A stretch of 39,512 nt of DNA, from assembly GCA_035574475.1 (NCBI GenBank), contig DATLYR010000003.1:1-39512 (forward strand), written 5' to 3'. The notes below the pieces were generated by a model. It had not been told where the DNA came from and did not search any database. It saw nothing but the letters and a program-made list of their open reading frames with translations. Source of the stretch: Nevskiales bacterium (GTDB lineage Bacteria > Pseudomonadota > Gammaproteobacteria > Nevskiales > DATLYR01). The translations under genes were made by a program, and so were the position numbers. The first letter of the stretch is position 1. The number at the start of each line of letters is the position of its first letter. This document shows positions 22,272-31,736 of this stretch, in pieces.

Positions 22272-22356
<85 letters not shown>

Positions 22357-22402
22357 AGCGCACATCCTAGCACGTACAGGATGATCCAACCGACGCAACG
22401 AT

Positions 22403-22471: not shown

Positions 22472-22564
22472 GGGGATACGGTTGGGGATACGAGACGAGC
22501 GTATCCCCACGAGACTCGAACCTGGGGCCCAACTCTCCCTCGGAAACGAGTCCAGCGTATCCCC
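22472..22564. repeat. GGGGATAC repeats, left end of island (candidate integrase/Xis arm sites)
   Basis: Two direct copies of GGGGATAC at 22472-22479 and 22484-22491 (12-bp step), then two inverted copies GTATCCCC at 22501-22508 and 22557-22564. The last lies 11 bases before the integrase start, so binding there could also control integrase expression. Two more direct copies with the same 12-bp step are at the right end. Confidence 0.7.
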
Positions 22565-22575
22565 ACGGGGGCTGA

Positions 22576-23805
22576 ATGCCCAAGCACATCAAGCCACTGA
22601 CCGAGGTCCGCATCCGGAGCGCCAAGCCCGACCAGTACCCGCTGTGGGACGGTGGCGGCCTGCACCTGATCCGCGATCCGGCCGGCGCGCGGCGCTGGCG
22701 GCTCAAGTATTACCGGCCCGACGGCCGCGAGAACCGGATCGGCTTCGGCCCCTATCCCGACGTGCCACTGGCCGAGGCGCGCCGGCAGCGCGAGCGCGTC
22801 CGCGAGCTGCTGCGCCAAGGCACCGACCCCGCCGAGCATCGCAAGGCCCAGCGCGACGAGGCCAAGCGCGCCACCGTGGGCACGTTCGAGGCGGTCTCGA
22901 AGGCCTGGCGTGAGTTCAAGGGCAAGAGCTGGTCGCCGGAGAGCAAGCGCAAGGCCGAGTACGTGCTGAACACCTACCTGCTGCCCTCCCTGAAATCCCG
23001 ACAGGTTGCCACGCTGAAAAGCGCTGAGGTCGCGGCCGTGCTGCGCCGGATTGCCGACCGCACGCCCGACCTGGCCCGCAAGGCCCGCCAGTACGTGCAG
23101 GGCATCATCCGCTACGCGATCCGCGAAGGCCTGCGCGACGAAGGGCGAGTGCTGATCCTGGACGAGGTGCTGCCCAAGAGCGCCAAGGGTCACATCCCGG
23201 CGCAGACCCTGCCCGATGAGATTGCAGCGCTGATAAAGGCCGTGCGCGGCTACAGCTCGCACGTCACCCGCGCCGCCCTCTTGATGTGCGCGTACACCGC
23301 GCAGCGGCCGGGCACGGTCGCTTCGATGCGCTGGGACGAGATAGCGCAGGATGTGGCCGAGTGGCGCATCCCGCCGGCCAAGATGAAGATGCGGCACACG
23401 CACATCGTCCCCCTGCCCCGCCAAGCCCTAGAACTGCTGACGGAGATGCAGCAGTACACCGCCGGGCGCGAGTACGTGTTTCCACCCCTGGCGCGCCAGC
23501 ACAATCCGCACCTGCACCGTGACGCGCTGAGCAATGCACTGCGGGACATGGGCTTTGCCGGCAAGCATGCGCCGCACGGCTTCCGGGGGATGTTCCGCAC
23601 TGCCGGCCGTGAGCGCCTGGGGATAGATTCCGACGTGCTGGAGGCGCAGCTAGCACACGCCAAGCGCGGCGACGTGCAGAAGGCCTACGACCGCACCACG
23701 TTCGATGAGACGCGGCGCCGGGCTATGCAGCGCTGGGCCGACTACCTGGACGGGCTCGAACACAAACGGGAAAAGGTTGTTTCAATCCGCGCGAAACGGG
23801 CTTGA
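22576..23805 (+). CDS. Tyrosine integrase, P4-like (DUF4102 N-terminal domain)
   Basis: Site-specific recombinase catalysing insertion and excision of the island at tRNA-Leu. The 409-aa protein has the N-terminal DUF4102 arm-binding domain (about 5-95, with YPLWDGGGLHLIRDPAGARR), a core-binding domain (about 100-190) and the catalytic domain with Arg244 (TAQRPGTV), His334 and Arg337 (HGFRGMF), His361 (LAHAKRGD) and nucleophile Tyr371 (AYDR). All catalytic residues are present, so the enzyme looks active. Start ATG 22576 has GGGGG just upstream. It lies directly beside the tRNA in the same orientation, the usual arrangement. Confidence 0.95.
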   Translation: MPKHIKPLTEVRIRSAKPDQYPLWDGGGLHLIRDPAGARRWRLKYYRPDGRENRIGFGPYPDVPLAEARRQRERVRELLRQGTDPAEHRKAQRDEAKRATVGTFEAVSKAWREFKGKSWSPESKRKAEYVLNTYLLPSLKSRQVATLKSAEVAAVLRRIADRTPDLARKARQYVQGIIRYAIREGLRDEGRVLILDEVLPKSAKGHIPAQTLPDEIAALIKAVRGYSSHVTRAALLMCAYTAQRPGTVASMRWDEIAQDVAEWRIPPAKMKMRHTHIVPLPRQALELLTEMQQYTAGREYVFPPLARQHNPHLHRDALSNALRDMGFAGKHAPHGFRGMFRTAGRERLGIDSDVLEAQLAHAKRGDVQKAYDRTTFDETRRRAMQRWADYLDGLEHKREKVVSIRAKRA

Positions 23806-23809
23806 GCAG

Positions 23810-26485
23810 TCAGCCGATCTTGTCCGCGATCTGCTTGTGGACTGACCGGCCCGCCTCATCCTCGGCGACCGCAAACAGAAACAGGCAACGGCCGCCGCTG
23901 GATTTCTCCCATTGATCGCCGACTTGCTTCTTTTCGCGGGAGTCGTCGTTAGTCTTGTAGGGATCCCCCTTGTATTCGACCGCCAGCACGCGACCGTCAT
24001 CCATCTCGGCGATGAAGTCCGGATAGAAATAATCCGTGGCGGTTGGCAGCCAGAAGGAGAATTTTTCCTGTCGCTCGATATTCCGCACCCAGTGCTTGAC
24101 CTTCGGGTGCGAATCAAGCGCCTGTGCGCAAATAAACTCCTCGGAGCGCTGGCCCGCACCCGTCTTTTCGCGCAGGTCATGGATGACGGGATAAAAGTGC
24201 TTCGTGAACTCGTAACTGCCCTGATAGCAGTTGCGCGCCGGGTATTGCCCTGGCTGAAACTGGAAGCTGAGCGGCGCGGCCTTGTCTGCCGGCGCGACGG
24301 CCATCTCGAACAGCCGCCCCTGAAAGCCTTGGGCTATCGCTAACTGTCGCAACCGCAAAATTTCCGCGTTGATTGCCTGTGCCAGCAAGTGACGGGCGCG
24401 TACCAGTGCAGTCAGTGTGAACCCACGCTCCTTGGTCAGGTGCGTAACCATCTTGACCAGATAGGCCTGTAGCTGCGTCTGCAAGATGTAGGGCTTGCGT
24501 GTTTGGGCATCCAGCCAGCGCACCAAGTCCTGCTCGCTGACCGTTCCCGCGACTGCGTTGAGGTTGAGCTGCTGGGCGTCTACGTGGCGGTACTTCACCC
24601 GCTCGCCGTTTACGTCAATCTCGAAGGAATTGACGGTTTCATGGATGGCGAACCCTTCCAGCTTTACCGGGCTATCCAGCAGGTTCCAGTCGCCCACGCT
24701 GCTCAAGGTTTCGCGTTCGACGACCTCCAGATAGCCGTCAAGCTTGAGACAGAGTTGCGGCACAGGGGCAAAGCCTGCGCCCAGTTGCGCCGGCGCCAGC
24801 AGCGCGCGGCGCATGGCGCGGTGCGCGTCAAACTGCTGCTTGACCGACTCGCGCGCCTTGGCCGGCACGGACTGCGTGATGAAGGTTTCCGCCTGCGCCA
24901 GGGCTTCGGCATCCAGATTGCCCTTGAGCAGCACGGTGGCACCTGTCGAGGTTGGGCGGATGTCCACCGCCTTTTTCACATCCTCCGGCCAATGCTGCGT
25001 ATCCGGCGCCTGTTCAAGCTCGATATGGCAATCGGGAATCGTCGGCTTCGGTGGAGCCGTGCCCGTGCCGCCGTCCAATGCCAACGGCTGCTGCGGAACC
25101 AGCACGCTGCTGGCCTCGAACCGCTCAAAGCCCATGTTCTGCACCATGCGGTCCTTGAGGTTGGCCGCGGCCTCGGCGAAGTTGGCGGCGACGATGTGCG
25201 CGTAAGCCTTGTTCAGCGGCTCCTGCTGGCGTGTCTTGGCGTAGGGCATCCGCAGCACGCGGCCCAGTAGCTGCTCAACGTCCTTGGCGGACGACACGGA
25301 TTGCAGGGAAGCCAGCACGTAGGCGAAGGAACAATCCCAGCCCTCTTTCAGGGCCTCCACCGTGATGACATAGCGCACCGGGCAGGCGGGATCGAACAAA
25401 TTGATCCCGTCCAGCTCTTTCTGCGCCCCGGTCGCCACCGCGATCTGCGCCTCGGGGATGTGCAGTTCCTCCAGCAGGTGCTTGCGAACCACATCCACGG
25501 TGGCTTCACCACCCTTGGGCTGCGCCTGGATCAACACAATCGGGCGCACGTAGTCGCTTTCCTTCTGCGCCACCGTTTCCAGCCGCGTGCGCGTCAGCAG
25601 CGCATCGCGCAGGCAGCTCTGCCAACCGTCCGGGTGCTCAGCGAGCACGATGGGCAGCTTAATCATCTGCTCCGCTTTCAGCTCCGCGGCGGCGACGTGA
25701 TACAGCACGTTGTTGCCGGGCACCGGCGTTGCGGTCAGCTCCACCACGCAACTGGGGTTGAGCCGGCCTAGGGATTTGAAGAAGCGGTCCGTGCGGTTGT
25801 TATGCGCTTCGTCCACGATGACGATGGGCCGCTGCTGGTTCAGCCAGTTGGCGACGGAATATTTCACCCGCCCAACGTCTGCGGCGGCCAGGAACGGCTG
25901 GTTCTGCAAGTCGTCCGCCGTGACCTTCTCCAGTCCTTCGGCAGCGCTCGGCGGCAGATTCTCGAAGTGCGGCGCCAGCTCCTCGAAGAAGGAATAGACA
26001 TTGCGCTTGGCAGTATCGCTAACGTTGAAGGATTGGATCGTCGCCACCACCACGATGCAGGCCTTGCCCACGTCCTGCGTGCCGATGGTTTGCAGGCTTT
26101 CAAGGTCGCAGACCAGCACGCGGTCGCCGAAGTGCTGACCCAGCGCGTGCCGGTAGGGATGATGCGCGTTGCTCAGGCTTTCCAGCGTTTGCGCGCGGAT
26201 GGCGTCGGAGGGCGTCAGCCACAGGACGACGGGCGCATCGGTGTCCAGCATGGTTTTGCCCGCCAACGGCACGGTATGCGCGGCCAGCAGCGTCTTGCCG
26301 CCGCCAGTGGGCACGCGCAGGCAGACGCTCGGCACCACGCCGAACACGGGCTGATAGGGCTCCGTGCGTCCTTGCGCGGTCAGCGCCACCTTGAAGGCCT
26401 CGGCCACCGGCATCCGGCGGCAGGCCTGGAGGAACGCGGCCAGCGCCGCCAGGGCATCTTCTTGGTATCGCTTGAGGGTGAGCAT
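23810..26485 (-). CDS. Type III-like restriction endonuclease, Res subunit
   Basis: Superfamily-2 helicase/nuclease that cleaves unmodified DNA in complex with Mod. The 891-aa protein has Walker A PTGGGKT (59-65), the DEAH box VIVDEAHNN (225-228), LTATP (about 250-254), the motif VI-like QLLGRVLRMP and a C-terminal PD-(D/E)xK nuclease with Pro822-Asp823 and Glu837-x-Lys839 (VLAVEYKG). All catalytic motifs are intact, so it appears functional. It is somewhat shorter than EcoP15I Res (~970 aa). Its start lies 5 bases after the mod stop with no clear ribosome site, suggesting coupled translation. Confidence 0.92.
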   Translation of the reverse strand: MLTLKRYQEDALAALAAFLQACRRMPVAEAFKVALTAQGRTEPYQPVFGVVPSVCLRVPTGGGKTLLAAHTVPLAGKTMLDTDAPVVLWLTPSDAIRAQTLESLSNAHHPYRHALGQHFGDRVLVCDLESLQTIGTQDVGKACIVVVATIQSFNVSDTAKRNVYSFFEELAPHFENLPPSAAEGLEKVTADDLQNQPFLAAADVGRVKYSVANWLNQQRPIVIVDEAHNNRTDRFFKSLGRLNPSCVVELTATPVPGNNVLYHVAAAELKAEQMIKLPIVLAEHPDGWQSCLRDALLTRTRLETVAQKESDYVRPIVLIQAQPKGGEATVDVVRKHLLEELHIPEAQIAVATGAQKELDGINLFDPACPVRYVITVEALKEGWDCSFAYVLASLQSVSSAKDVEQLLGRVLRMPYAKTRQQEPLNKAYAHIVAANFAEAAANLKDRMVQNMGFERFEASSVLVPQQPLALDGGTGTAPPKPTIPDCHIELEQAPDTQHWPEDVKKAVDIRPTSTGATVLLKGNLDAEALAQAETFITQSVPAKARESVKQQFDAHRAMRRALLAPAQLGAGFAPVPQLCLKLDGYLEVVERETLSSVGDWNLLDSPVKLEGFAIHETVNSFEIDVNGERVKYRHVDAQQLNLNAVAGTVSEQDLVRWLDAQTRKPYILQTQLQAYLVKMVTHLTKERGFTLTALVRARHLLAQAINAEILRLRQLAIAQGFQGRLFEMAVAPADKAAPLSFQFQPGQYPARNCYQGSYEFTKHFYPVIHDLREKTGAGQRSEEFICAQALDSHPKVKHWVRNIERQEKFSFWLPTATDYFYPDFIAEMDDGRVLAVEYKGDPYKTNDDSREKKQVGDQWEKSSGGRCLFLFAVAEDEAGRSVHKQIADKIG

Positions 26486-26490
26486 GGCGA

Positions 26491-28011
26491 TCAGCGCGTC
26501 TTGATGTCGTAGGGGATCTGTTTGAAGGTGACGCCCGCGGCAACCAGCGCCGCGTCGCCCAAGCGCGTGGTTTCGCCGTAAATCACCTTCGGCCCGTCAT
26601 GCGGGTAGCGTTCATTGAGCATCTGCAGGATGGGGCGCGTCAGCACGTTGCCACCGTCCGGCCGCTTGTCGCCCAGAATGCCGTTGAACAGCAGGTAGTA
26701 GGCCGTGCCGTTGTGCCGGCCCAACAGCGGTTTGTTGAACGTCTTGGCTGCCGGGGTTGCCGTCTCGAAATGCCAGATGAACGCGGCCAGTGTGCCGAAG
26801 CGTACTTCGGGATTGATGCGGCCATCGGCGTCGAACGCCGCCTGGCCCAGCGTACAGAAGCGGAAGCCGCCACCACCTTTCCAGCCCACCGCTTCGCTAA
26901 TGCCGCCCTGCTCACCCTCGATGACCTTTTGCAGGCGTGGGATGCAGTGCGTGCGGGCATGCTCGCCCATCTCGATTCCGATATAGCGGCGGCCCATCTT
27001 GTGTGCGACGGCGGCGGTTGTACCCGAACCAAGGAAGGAATCCAGAACGATGTCGCCAGGCTGAGTAGAAATGTTCAATGCCCGCTCTATCAGCCGTTCC
27101 GGCTTTGGCGTACCGAAGGATTCCTCGCCGGGGAACAGCGCGCGCATTTCGTTTTTGGAAGTGCGGTTACTGCCCACTGCGTCCTTGCCCCACAACGTAC
27201 GCGGCACAAGGTCGCTGACCTCCGACAGGTAACGCTTGATGCTCGGCCGCGCGTCTCCATTCGGCCCCCACCAGATTCGACCGTCTGCATCCAAGGCGCG
27301 CAACTTCTCCTCAGAAACTCGCCAGTACCGGCCCGGTGGCGGTGAGAAGGTCCGGCCTGTTGGACCCGTGATGCTGTACTGGCCTTTTGAATATGGTTTG
27401 TTCGCGTAAGGGTCTCCAGGAAGCCAGGGGCCGCGTTCGTCGTTGTCAGGGTTCGTGTAGATCGAGTTGGCTTCCTCCGTGCGTGCCAACTTTATCGGCG
27501 TCCAATCGGGATGACGCGCGTAGACGTGGATGTAGTCGTGGTCGCTGGAGAACTGACGTGCTGAGTTTCGCGGCGAGTCGGCTTTTTCCCAGATAACGGT
27601 CGTAACAAAGTTTGCCCGGCCAAAAACTTCGTCCATGAGCACCTTGAGGTAGTGCCCTTCGTTGTCGTCAATGCTGACCCAGATGCTTCCCTCCTCCGCG
27701 AGTAGTTCACGCAGCAGCACTAGACGCGGATACATCATGCTCAGCCATTGGCTGTGCTCAAGCTTGTCGTCGTAGTGCTCGAATGCGGACTGCGTGTTGT
27801 AGGGCGGGTCAATGAAAATGCACTTCACCCGCCCGGCATAGACCGGAATCAGCGCCTTGAGCGCCAGCAGGTTGTCGCCCTGGATCAGCAGATTGTCCGG
27901 CGGGTTTTCCTCGCTGCCGCCATGCACGGCCTCCTGCTTGAGCAGGTGAACCGGCACCGAGCGCGTGGCCTCCTTCGCCTGATTTTTGTTGACCCAATCC
28001 AGAAACGGCAT
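26491..28011 (-). CDS. Type III-like DNA methyltransferase, Mod subunit (beta class)
   Basis: Probably an N6-adenine methyltransferase that protects host DNA and gives the RM complex its specificity. The 506-aa protein has motif IV DPPYNT (68-73) near the N-terminus and motif I DSFLGSGTT (324-332) after a variable target-recognition region (about 140-290). The order IV-TRD-I is that of beta-class Mod proteins. The start (ATG 28011) has GGGGA 8 bases upstream. It forms an operon with res. The shared divergent promoter region with the 28140 gene is described separately. Recognition sequence cannot be predicted. Confidence 0.93.
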   Translation of the reverse strand: MPFLDWVNKNQAKEATRSVPVHLLKQEAVHGGSEENPPDNLLIQGDNLLALKALIPVYAGRVKCIFIDPPYNTQSAFEHYDDKLEHSQWLSMMYPRLVLLRELLAEEGSIWVSIDDNEGHYLKVLMDEVFGRANFVTTVIWEKADSPRNSARQFSSDHDYIHVYARHPDWTPIKLARTEEANSIYTNPDNDERGPWLPGDPYANKPYSKGQYSITGPTGRTFSPPPGRYWRVSEEKLRALDADGRIWWGPNGDARPSIKRYLSEVSDLVPRTLWGKDAVGSNRTSKNEMRALFPGEESFGTPKPERLIERALNISTQPGDIVLDSFLGSGTTAAVAHKMGRRYIGIEMGEHARTHCIPRLQKVIEGEQGGISEAVGWKGGGGFRFCTLGQAAFDADGRINPEVRFGTLAAFIWHFETATPAAKTFNKPLLGRHNGTAYYLLFNGILGDKRPDGGNVLTRPILQMLNERYPHDGPKVIYGETTRLGDAALVAAGVTFKQIPYDIKTR

Positions 28012-28075: not shown

Positions 28076-28129
28076 TTGGATGTCGCAGGGCCTCCCTGTA
28101 TCTTACAGGCTCGAACAGCACGCACCCAA
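28076..28129. promoter_or_regulatory. Overlapping divergent promoters with a shared palindromic operator
   Basis: Plus strand: TTGGAT (28076-28081), 17-bp spacer, TATCTT (28099-28104), driving the 28140 gene. Minus strand: TTGGGT (28129-28124), 18-bp spacer, TAAGAT (28105-28100), driving mod-res. A perfect palindrome CCTGTA-TCT-TACAGG (28095-28109) covers both -10 elements. A dimeric repressor bound there would shut both directions at once. It is not a LexA box, because the half-site spacing is wrong. Confidence 0.6.
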
Positions 28130-28139
28130 TACGGTCACG

Positions 28140-28964
28140 ATGAGCGAAAGGGCTTTAGTAGACGGATGGCCCGCATGGGCGCCAAAGGACTTGCTGGAAT
28201 GGTTCGGCCGGGTCGCAGATAAGCTCCCACCCAGACAGTTCGAGTTCTATGCGAAGCTCGCCAGCGATCAACGCATGCGTGAGGTTTGGGTGTGGTACGA
28301 GAAAGCCAGACATACGGCAACCCATCCGCTCGGCCGATCATCACTCTCATTCTGCATGAAAATCGCGGGCGCAATGAGCCTGCCCGAGAAACCCGGCAAC
28401 ATGAGCGTCAAGCAACGCGAGAAATACTTTGCGAAGGTTCGTCTGCACGCGACCGCTTTGCGCGATCTGCTTAACGACACCCTGTTTGACTACACCCCAT
28501 TCAGCGAGCTGGTCATAGATCAAGAGAAACTTGCGGATACCGTTGTAAGAGACCTGCAACCTTGGGGCGACGACGAGACGGGGCACGTTGTTGCTTATTG
28601 GGTGGACGACGACGGCGTGCGCAGGATGGACTGGGATTACCCACAATCACATTTCACGGAGCTTTTATTCAACGTCATTGAGTGGACACGCCAGGAAGAT
28701 TTCTGGGGAAGAGGCGGGTTGATGTCTAGCGCCCCAATCGGTCAAGCGAATTCGCCGAACATGCGCACAATATATTTCAACTACACGTTGTATAGCTCTC
28801 TTCTGCGCGACGGAATCAGCATTCCTTTCGCACTGCTTGCTACCACAGCGAATGTGGCACTGGATCTTCCCGCGCATTTGCTGGTGGATGAGGACACGGT
28901 GCGTAAACAGGTGCGGCGAGTCGAGGCCCGCCTCCGCAAGGAGGCTCCCGACAAAGCGTTCTGA
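28140..28964 (+). CDS. Uncharacterised 274-aa protein divergent from the RM operon
   Basis: I do not recognise this family. From ATG 28140 the protein is 274 aa, soluble, with many aromatic residues and no signal peptide or clear membrane helix. The N-terminal third is helical and Trp/Lys/Arg-rich (WAPKDLLEWFGRVADKLP). A middle part carries DDETGHVVAYWVDDDGVRRM, and the C-terminus is a charged helix (VRKQVRRVEARLRKE). GC content is visibly lower than in the chromosomal genes, as expected for acquired DNA. The frame opens at 28080, but that start would lie inside the predicted promoter. Sharing a promoter region with mod-res suggests a role tied to the RM system, or a cargo gene under the same repressor. 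Confidence 0.7.
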   Translation: MSERALVDGWPAWAPKDLLEWFGRVADKLPPRQFEFYAKLASDQRMREVWVWYEKARHTATHPLGRSSLSFCMKIAGAMSLPEKPGNMSVKQREKYFAKVRLHATALRDLLNDTLFDYTPFSELVIDQEKLADTVVRDLQPWGDDETGHVVAYWVDDDGVRRMDWDYPQSHFTELLFNVIEWTRQEDFWGRGGLMSSAPIGQANSPNMRTIYFNYTLYSSLLRDGISIPFALLATTANVALDLPAHLLVDEDTVRKQVRRVEARLRKEAPDKAF

Positions 28965-29000: not shown

Positions 29001-29065
29001 TGTCGCAAGCTGACGCTTTACGCGAGCATTCGCCCATGTTCAGCACTGCCCAGAGGAGGGCGAGC

Positions 29066-29263
29066 ATGGCCGAAAGCATCTTGCGACTGCCACAGGTGAA
29101 GGCCCGCACGGGCCTGAGCCGTTCCAGCATCTACGCCGCGATCTCGCGCGGCGAGTTTCCCAAGCCCGTCGCCTTGGGCACCCGCAGCGTCGGCTGGCCT
29201 GAAAGCGAGGTGAGCGCCTGGATCGAGCGCCGCATCGCGGCATCCCGCCGGCGCGCGGCGTAG
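29066..29263 (+). CDS. AlpA-family excision/transcription regulator
   Basis: 65-aa winged-helix (MerR-like) DNA-binding protein. It shows the family pattern ILRLPQVKARTGLSRSSIY, ISRGEFPKPVALG, and VGWPESEVSAWIERR. AlpA/Xis-type proteins in P4-like elements activate integrase transcription or act as excision factors, so this is the best candidate for binding the GGGGATAC repeats or the 28967-29000 palindrome. Start ATG 29066 has GAGGAGGG at 5-base spacing; the in-frame ATG at 29036 has none. Confidence 0.88.
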   Translation: MAESILRLPQVKARTGLSRSSIYAAISRGEFPKPVALGTRSVGWPESEVSAWIERRIAASRRRAA

Positions 29264-29270
29264 GACGCTT

Positions 29271-29789
29271 ATGGGGCGGCGTGCGCGCGGCGCGGAGCTG
29301 GGCGCCAAGCGGGAACCTGGGGGCTTTTCGGCATGGCCGAGAGCTTGCGCTAGAAGCGAAAACTTTTACCGGCTGAGCTACACGGCACGGTCGCTACTGT
29401 TCGAGTTCCTGACGCAGTACAGCGGGGCAAATAACGGCGATCTGACCTGCGCCTGGACCGTCCTGCGGGTCCGAGGCTGGAACTCCAAAAGCACGATTCA
29501 ATTCGCGCGTGACGAGCTGCTGCGTACCGGCTGGATCGTGGTTACTCGCTATGGCGGCTTGGGCGTTACGGAACTGTACGCGTTGACGTTCTTCGACATT
29601 GACGAGTGCCAGGGCAAGGTTGATCCGGAGCTGGTTGGCCGGCGCCTGAGTTACTGGCGAACAGGCCGCAATCTGCACTATCTGCCGAAGAAAAAGGCCG
29701 CTGCAAAAATGAAAAGCCACCCCGATTCTCAGGGCGGAAAGTCCCGAAATTCGGGGCGGCAAATCCCTATTCTCAGGCAGGCGTCATGA
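29271..29789 (+). CDS. Phage/plasmid-type protein of unknown function, possible replication-related
   Basis: 172 aa beginning MGRRARGAELGAKREPGGF. I recall a similar opening (MGRR-rich, then REPGGF) in a family common in prophages and integrative elements of Proteobacteria. The central part (YRLSYTARSLLFEFLTQY, NNGDLTCAW, RGWNSKSTIQFARDELLRTG) is compatible with a winged-helix fold. The last ~25 residues are Lys/Arg/Ser-rich and are encoded by the start of a phased DNA repeat array (29721-29856), an arrangement like initiator genes lying beside their iterons. No enzymatic motif is visible. It follows alpA by 7 bases and is probably co-transcribed. Confidence 0.65.
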   Translation: MGRRARGAELGAKREPGGFSAWPRACARSENFYRLSYTARSLLFEFLTQYSGANNGDLTCAWTVLRVRGWNSKSTIQFARDELLRTGWIVVTRYGGLGVTELYALTFFDIDECQGKVDPELVGRRLSYWRTGRNLHYLPKKKAAAKMKSHPDSQGGKSRNSGRQIPILRQAS

Positions 29790-29856
29790 AGGCAAGTCCC
29801 GATTCTCGGGTTTATTTGGAAGCCGCTGGACGCTGGCCTTTCCCCGATTCTCGGGG
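29721..29856. repeat. Phased palindromic repeats, CCCGATTCTCGGG (iteron-like array)
   Basis: Five copies: 29721, 29743, 29765, 29798 and 29843 (first C of CCCGA or CCCTA). The spacing is 22, 22, 33 and 45 bp, close to whole helical turns. The first three are tandem 22-bp units including a GGCGGAAAG-type tail. Each copy is itself a small inverted repeat (CCCGA-TTC-TCGGG); the last is extended to CCCC...GGGG. This pattern fits iterons of a replication origin or a cooperative operator. It lies at the 3' end of the 29271 gene and ends 47 bases before the next gene. Confidence 0.7.
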
Positions 29857-29903
29857 AGCTTCTAAGTTTTACCACTCCCTACCCGTACATCTGGGCGCTG
29901 TTC

Positions 29904-30509
29904 ATGGGCGGATTCGGTAGCGGCAACACCGGCTGGCGCCCTCACCTGGAGAGCGCCTTGTGCCTGAGTCTGCCGAAACTCAGGCACTGGGGTTACGTAC
30001 TGGCCGGCGGCACCGTCACGGGCAAACTGATCTGGACGTATGGCACGGATCAGTACGCGGGTTCCATTCGAGTCCACGCCAACGAGCACGGTGGCTGGAT
30101 CGAAATGCGCCACGAACTTCGTGAGCGCGCCCAGAGCATCGAGCTGGTGGCCGTGGCCCCGCCGTTCGGCGGCGTGCGCTGGTACATGCGCTGCCCCTAC
30201 ACCGGCCGGCGCGCGCTCAAGCTCTACCTGTTCAACGGTATCGAACTGTTCTGCTGCCGTGACGCGATCCGTCCGCGGCCCACCTACGCCAGCCAGCGCG
30301 TCTCAGGCTCCGACCGAATCATGGCGCAGCGCTGGGCGATACGGCGCAAGCTGGATGATCCCGGCGACCTGTTCACGATCCTGACGAAGCCGAAGTGGAT
30401 GCGCTGGCGGACGTTCGAGCGGTACGAGCAGCACGACAATGCGCTCGCCGAGCGTGAGAACGTGCATCTCTTGAGGTTGTTGGGAAGGCTGCAGAAAAAA
30501 CGGGGTTAG
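29904..30509 (+). CDS. Integrative-element protein starting MGGFGSG, degenerate zinc-ribbon
   Basis: 201 aa. The family, as I recall it from phages and islands, begins MGGxGSG and contains two CxxC knuckles around GRR...LY and ends in a WRT(F/Y)xR segment. Here MGGFGSGNTGW, RCPYTGRRALKLYLF, ELFCCRDAIRPRPTYASQR and KPKWMRWRTFERYE are visible. The second cysteine of each expected pair is missing (CPYT; CRDA), so metal binding is probably lost. The start has no clear ribosome site. Function unknown. Confidence 0.65.
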   Translation: MGGFGSGNTGWRPHLESALCLSLPKLRHWGYVLAGGTVTGKLIWTYGTDQYAGSIRVHANEHGGWIEMRHELRERAQSIELVAVAPPFGGVRWYMRCPYTGRRALKLYLFNGIELFCCRDAIRPRPTYASQRVSGSDRIMAQRWAIRRKLDDPGDLFTILTKPKWMRWRTFERYEQHDNALAERENVHLLRLLGRLQKKRG

Positions 30510-31642: not shown

Positions 31643-31662
31643 GGGGATACGAGTGGGGATAC
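31643..31662. repeat. GGGGATAC repeats, right end of island
   Basis: Two direct copies at 31643-31650 and 31655-31662, a 12-bp step as in the left-end pair, 50 bases inside attR. Probably the second set of recombinase arm sites. Confidence 0.7.
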
Positions 31663-31712
31663 GTGGTGGCCCGCGCACAAGGACCATCACAGAATCAATC
31701 AGTTAGCAGAGA

Positions 31713-31736
31713 GTTCGGGTCCTCTCCTGGCACCAA
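31713..31736 (+). repeat. attR: displaced and decayed tRNA-Leu 3' end
   Basis: GTTCGGGTCCTCTCCTGG followed by CACCAA. Relative to the tRNA it has an A-to-G change in the T-loop and has lost one G of the acceptor strand. It cannot form a tRNA by itself. Confidence 0.85.

Follow-up and report, generated by a model that had tools for sequence, protein, structure and literature searches.

A helically phased palindrome array beside an initiator-like gene as a candidate replication origin of a satellite-like integrative island

The stretch of DNA analysed here, further called the window, comprised 39,512 nucleotides of a Nevskiales bacterium (assembly GCA_035574475.1, contig DATLYR010000003.1, positions 1 to 39,512). 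Within a 9.4-kb integrative island located at a tRNA-Leu gene (22272-22356), the window carried an array of five related odd-centred palindromes on the plus strand (29721-29855, spanning 135 bp). The array overlapped the 3' end of an open reading frame (ORF) starting at 29271, which encoded a winged-helix protein, and was followed by a short AT-rich element (Table 1).

The start-to-start spacings of the palindromes were 22, 22, 33 and 45 bp. A first-pass annotation had described five palindromic copies with this spacing; their positions and spacing were confirmed, but the perfect core was found in two of the five copies only, the others containing 1-3 changes. The location of the first three copies inside or at the end of the gene was also borne out. 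Since the ORF (29271-29789) stopped after the third copy, three palindromes were coding and two were non-coding. Based on dinucleotide shuffles, 1.6 matches of the CCCGATTCTCGGG type with no more than two mismatches were expected per 39.5-kb window, when five were seen, all within 135 bp. The array score of the window was S=15, compared with 7.1±0.9 for shuffles of the region (width-15 detector). In its own genome, the CCCGATTCTCGGG motif with no more than one mismatch was present at three sites in the array and at one unrelated single site elsewhere.

Table 1. Positions of the array, the initiator-like gene and other features of the island (strand in brackets).
Feature	Position	Sequence or support	Remark
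Initiator-like winged-helix protein, 172 amino acids	29271..29789 (+)	profile, fold	presumed cognate DNA-binding protein of the array
Recognition-helix region covarying with palindromes	29472..29510 (+)	RGWNSKSTIQFAR	codons 68-80
Palindrome 1	29721-29733 (+)	CCCGATTCTCAGG, 1 mismatch	within ORF 29271
Palindrome 2	29743-29755 (+)	CCCGAAATTCGGG, 2 mismatches (reverse strand), 3 (plus strand)	within ORF 29271
Palindrome 3	29765-29777 (+)	CCCTATTCTCAGG, 2 mismatches	within ORF 29271
Palindrome 4	29798-29810 (+)	exact CCCGATTCTCGGG	3' of the ORF 29271 stop codon
Palindrome 5	29843-29855 (+)	exact CCCGATTCTCGGG	last site; fixed distance to the weak element
Candidate unwinding element	29856..29874 (+)	GAGCTTCTAAGTTTTACCA	CCA starts 23 bp past the palindrome 5 centre
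attL-like site	22334..22357 (+)	GTTCGAGTCCTCTCCTGGGCACCA	3' end of tRNA-Leu
Island tyrosine integrase	22576..23805 (+)	PF13356, PF22022, PF00589	
Type III restriction-modification pair	23810-28011 (-)	res 891 amino acids, mod 506 amino acids	island cargo
294-amino-acid protein	28080-28964 (+)	no Pfam or PHROG match	flanked by the mod gene and alpA
AlpA-family regulator/excisionase	29036..29263 (+)	PF05930, E=1.7e-20	directly upstream of ORF 29271
Gene starting MGGFGSGNTGW	29904-30509 (+)	no Pfam match	immediately follows the array
attR-like site	31713..31735 (+)	GTTCGGGTCCTCTCCTGGCACCA	other island end; near-copy of the tRNA-Leu 3' end

Relatives of the ORF 29271 protein (~90 distinct) were obtained from whole-genome searches, IMG/VR and annotated phage and plasmid records, most of them residing in bacterial genomes of the same phylum. 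Single-protein scans of genome contigs and viral contigs with the ORF 29271 protein gave no matches. The region 3' of the conserved core was analysed by a spacing-blind detector recording any repeated 15-mer on either strand, and an array was regarded as significant if it scored 10 or more and exceeded each of 40 dinucleotide shuffles. Significant arrays were found in 69 of 88 members, at or just past the 3' end of the same gene, and 55 were left after proteins more than 70% identical had been removed. About 19 of the 88 members had no significant array by this strict 15-mer detector; some of these (e.g. L007) showed degenerate palindromes and the downstream element, and others were remote or fragmentary.

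The palindromes differed widely among the members, which carried GTACAGAAACTGTAC, GTGCAGAAACTGCAC, TGCCAATTTGGCA, CCGCACTGAGTGCGG, GTACGGCCACCGTAC, CCCGATTCTCGGG and others. The 168 spacings of the 55 non-redundant arrays peaked at 22, 32-33, 43-45 and 52-54 bp, that is, at multiples of ~10.7 bp. Vector strength was 0.61 at a period near 10.5-10.75 bp, a periodicity matched by 0 of 5000 random sets. Hence, the protein and the phasing were both kept in the relatives, and the loss of phasing that the first-pass annotation had named as refuting it was not seen. The stop codon was mostly found ~10-50 codons past the conserved core, its position varying from immediately past the core to more than +400 nucleotides, and the arrays were wholly 3' of the stop in 19 of 55 cases, partly inside the reading frame in 26 and wholly inside it in 10. 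Because the palindrome sequences were unrelated between members and 19 arrays were wholly non-coding, it was concluded that the repeats are maintained as DNA sites rather than as codons; conservation as codons only, which had been named as grounds for abandoning the annotation, was thereby dismissed.

The element past the last palindrome had a family consensus of (A)CC-TTTATAGATAT-TACCA, i.e. CC-TT-(AT-rich)-TACCA. It was detected past the last palindrome in 39 of 55 relatives, compared with 5 of 168 cases past earlier palindromes, and CCA and the palindrome centre were 18-28 bp, most often 23 bp, apart. The element ranked among the weakest 5% of the duplex within 700 bp on either side (1.4 kb) in 43 of 55 relatives, with a median rank of 0.5%, whereas the same offset past earlier palindromes gave a median stability rank of 34%. 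In the window, the least stable 18-bp stretches of the region 29300-30500 started at 29859-29860. Beyond the element, little conservation was observed downstream, and no independent -35-like signal was found on either side.

The ORF 29271 protein alone had no Pfam, NCBIfam or PHROG match. A Pfam test with the RepA_N family model (PF06970) was negative for this protein, and the phage O N-terminal model TIGR01610 did not match it either, matching one of ten relatives at E=0.021. Weak matches of the relatives to O-like replication initiation and DnaD-like loader families were recorded in PHROGs. When a profile of 41 members was used, the best PDB match was the N-domain of the staphylococcal replication initiator RepA (4PTA, E=6.5e-4). 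The AlphaFold model of the protein had a predicted local distance difference test score of 85, dropping past residue ~140. By Foldseek, RepA N-domain chains (4pt7/4pql/5kbj) ranked 1-4 in the PDB with weak E values of 0.02-0.12, and GpO N-terminal, RepA-like and replisome-organiser proteins were among the matches in viral models. The sole relative in the phage collection, that of Pseudomonas phage vB_Pae_U1, was annotated by the depositors as 'replication protein O'. Further, a PIDEC-GKLD segment was conserved after the wing and is a candidate contact for helicase loading.

The relation between the protein and its sites was analysed in 41 non-redundant members with odd-centred palindromes by relating the similarity of the half-sites to that of the proteins along the alignment in sliding windows. 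The covariation peaked at alignment columns 51-64 (RGWNSKSTIQFARD), equal to residues 68-81 of the window protein, where the AlphaFold model had a helix at 73-85 placed like a recognition helix. After control for the rest of the protein, the partial correlation was 0.46, a value reached in none of 2000 permutations, which remove shared ancestry incompletely, and random sets of columns outside the peak gave 0.25 at most. In pairs less than 40% identical elsewhere, the site similarity was predicted by the helix (rho 0.48) and hardly by the rest of the protein (0.13). Ancestry alone leaves the location of the signal in the recognition helix unexplained. At single positions, the strongest signal paired residue 71 (Asn) with base ±3, and another paired residue 75 with base ±4; contacts between these residues and bases are suggested. 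C at -4 and G at +4 were common to about three quarters of the family. Indirectly, the covariation points to recognition of the palindromes by the neighbouring putative initiator via its recognition helix.

Based on these data, it was proposed that the array together with the element at 29856-29874 is probably a replication origin of a satellite-like island and that ORF 29271 encodes the cognate initiator. At least three repeated, putative initiator sites in helical phase beside the putative initiator gene, as expected of an iteron origin, were present. An adjacent AT-rich element of low stability was present as well, and its unwinding role is predicted. The first-pass annotation had allowed either an iteron origin or a cooperative operator, and its suggestion was supported; the origin was favoured because of the initiator-like profile and fold, the conserved melt-prone element at the array end and the resemblance to satellite and phage origins.

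In lambda and Stx phages, dimers of the initiator O bind at least four palindromic iterons of ~18 bp that lie within its own gene, and a melt-prone AT-rich tract flanking them on one side opens (PMC7466680). The present array shared with this origin the palindromic sites within the putative initiator gene and the one-sided, melt-prone AT-rich tract. However, the lambda iterons are located mid-gene, 20-24 bp apart (spacings 20, 24 and 23), whereas here the array may pass the stop codon with spacings of 22/33/44/54 bp, and the AT element, unlike that of lambda, is short with TACCA at its end. Lambda O carries a further C-terminal domain contacting P, when the protein here ends soon past its DNA-binding domain.

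In pSK41, the Rep boxes are inside rep (PMC5703833). The overlap with coding sequence, initially considered unusual, is therefore less so, as the lambda and pSK41 origins both sit within the initiator gene. RepA_N initiators (pSK41, pTZ2162, PLE RepA) resembled the present system in their semi-palindromic iterons (PMC5703833, PMC7145576, PMC8263062), and their N-terminal winged helix was the best PDB match by profile and, with weak E values, by fold. In the PLE satellite, the RepA DNA-binding domain and the iterons covary (PMC8263062, PMC7145576). Unlike RepA_N proteins, the protein studied here had neither a PF06970 match nor a DnaD-like or other C-terminal domain, and its carriers were islands with a tyrosine integrase and AlpA.

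Gram-negative phage-inducible chromosomal islands (PICIs) such as EcCICFT073 are int/alpA islands in which the iteron origin directly follows the 3' end of the initiator gene (PMC6092414). The integrase, AlpA and the position of the origin 3' of the initiator gene were common to both, but in PICIs the initiator, Pri-Rep, is also a primase and the AT-rich region sits between two sets of iterons, whereas a small primase-less protein and palindromes on one side only were found here. In Salmonella genomic island 1 (SGI1), oriV is immediately 3' of rep (PMC7433901). Although SGI1, too, is an excisable island and has its iteron origin placed in this way, its GC-rich 17-bp direct repeats, DnaA box and RepA_C-type protein had no counterpart here. 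The array with its protein would resemble a lambda-type or RepA_N-type origin in its working, yet it fails the sequence tests of both families and is without their C-terminal domains. No description of this family of initiators and arrays was found in the open-access literature searched, subscription papers being outside the scope.

The anatomy was also weighed against that of a multi-site operator, where the winged-helix protein would repress or activate transcription cooperatively and the AT-rich element would serve as the -10 of a promoter under its control, e.g. that of cargo or packaging genes downstream. Regulators are common among winged-helix proteins, the weak Foldseek matches included MarR-like proteins, and whole-turn spacing is also given by phased operators. 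The element (TATAGATAT) is -10-like, and its reverse strand TGG-TAnAnT resembles an extended -10. However, the place of a rightward -35 was covered by the last palindrome with no other conserved -35 on either side, and a leftward extended -10 promoter within the conserved element would have no -35-like conservation beyond it. The arrays accompanied the 3' end of the ORF 29271-type gene rather than the start of whichever gene came next; the distance and orientation of the next ORF varied, and in L017 and L128 the next ORFs (one of 725 amino acids) pointed towards the array, as judged by crude ORF calls. The best profile and fold relatives of the protein were initiators, not repressors. Since the anatomy matched lambda, RepA_N plasmids, SGI1, Gram-negative PICIs and, above all, PLE, the origin was preferred, and an operator, the chief alternative, was considered unlikely.

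TubR binds iterated sites adjoining its own gene, and TubR structures were among the weak Foldseek matches, so that the protein could be a TubR/ParR-like adaptor and the array a partition centromere. Such a role was judged very improbable: neither a partition ATPase nor any TubZ, ParA or ParM-like nucleoside triphosphatase was among the families listed for the neighbours of 20 relatives (four ORFs per side; downstream, the 25 most frequent families), and the melt-prone element would be left without a role. Three of the five copies lie in the reading frame, as a mere coding repeat at the protein C terminus would, but the palindrome DNA varied freely, as did the stop position, and for chance the array scores in 69 of 88 members were too high. 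Both possibilities were assigned a negligible probability, being refuted by the wholly non-coding arrays and the shuffle comparison.

Several observations weighed against the proposed origin. No helicase, primase or loader was recognised in the ORF 29271 protein or its nearby genes, and no primase, helicase or loader was among the recognised neighbour families within the scope given above; among the island genes of the window, no primase gene was recognised. The matches to named initiators were weak, as with RepA by Foldseek, and the C-terminal domain that serves replisome contact in lambda O and RepA was missing. DnaA boxes were not enriched in the family and were present only in two distant members, L061 and L067. 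The AT-rich element could also be a promoter -10. No plasmid in PLSDB had an ORF 29271-type protein as its own replicon, the single match being a prophage-like region of a megaplasmid, and the contigs of the IMG/VR relatives were without terminal repeats indicating a circle.

For the candidate origin, the following mechanism was proposed. Dimers of the winged-helix protein would bind the odd-centred palindromes, one dimer per site, via the recognition helix, in agreement with the covariation. Because the sites sit whole helical turns apart, the bound dimers would be on one face of the DNA, where they may pack together or wrap the DNA. The packing would strain and open the AT-rich CTTCTAAGTTTTACCA element at a fixed distance past the last site, and a host or helper-phage helicase would then be loaded. 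As the protein ends shortly past the DNA-binding domain, helicase loading was the main gap in this mechanism. The origin would act after excision of the island by the integrase and AlpA.

We tentatively extended this proposal, with rather less confidence than in the origin itself, to a widespread, as yet unnamed class of minimal replicons consisting of a ~130-170-amino-acid winged-helix protein and ~200 bp of phased palindromes with a CC-AT-TACCA exit element. In Proteobacteria, many satellite-like integrative islands and capsid-carrying satellites may encode no replication function of their own beyond this protein and DNA segment. The PIDEC-GKLD segment and/or TACCA would capture the host or helper replisome, and the iteron specificity would diversify through paired changes in the recognition helix and the palindrome, perhaps serving escape from incompatibility or from origin-targeting enzymes. 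If correct, the proposal gives a sequence signature for locating replication origins of islands not known to replicate and explains how satellites without a recognised primase or helicase could amplify. It would also provide ~40-55 matched protein-site pairs as a natural series for reading the DNA-recognition code and make testable how an initiator without a recognisable replisome-contact domain starts replication.

The island had a GC content of 62% compared with 67% outside, and the tRNA was the sole Rfam match in the window. Six copies of GGGGATACG were found near the island ends, four on the left (22472-22564) and two on the right (31643-31663), when 0.1 was expected per whole window; these are likely arm sites of the integrase or AlpA/excisionase. 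In L054 and L103, genes related to the 29904-30509 gene (49% and 31% identity, respectively) were located close to the homologue of ORF 29271.

In the relatives, integrases accounted for 11 of 80 upstream ORFs (20 loci), AlpA homologues were detected near the initiator gene by tblastn in 19 loci, and the genes downstream of the arrays were varied cargo. Many IMG/VR relatives were elements of 10-13 kb with an integrase, a regulator and the initiator gene followed by head, protease, portal, HNH and both terminase genes, a layout that appears to be that of capsid-forming satellites. In four of the IMG/VR members of 10-13 kb with capsid and terminase genes (L021, L024, L028 and L031), the array spacing was 23, 74 and 34 bp. 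L041 had a 51-bp tRNA-like repeat near both ends.

The prophage-like region of a Cupriavidus megaplasmid (L005:3669-4393) contained two tandem initiator paralogues, preceded by a toprim gene and followed by a helicase gene. Its repeats were longer and spaced by 24 bp, the initiator version there being inside a fuller replication module. In L061 and L067, both from the same genome, the repeats were spaced by 16 bp or 31-53 bp, and DnaA-box sequences (TTATCCACA) were located just downstream. One genome (G084) carried the same initiator and array twice (L008 and L015) on one contig, ~203 kb apart and with equal match scores; its chromosome probably contains a single element in duplicate.
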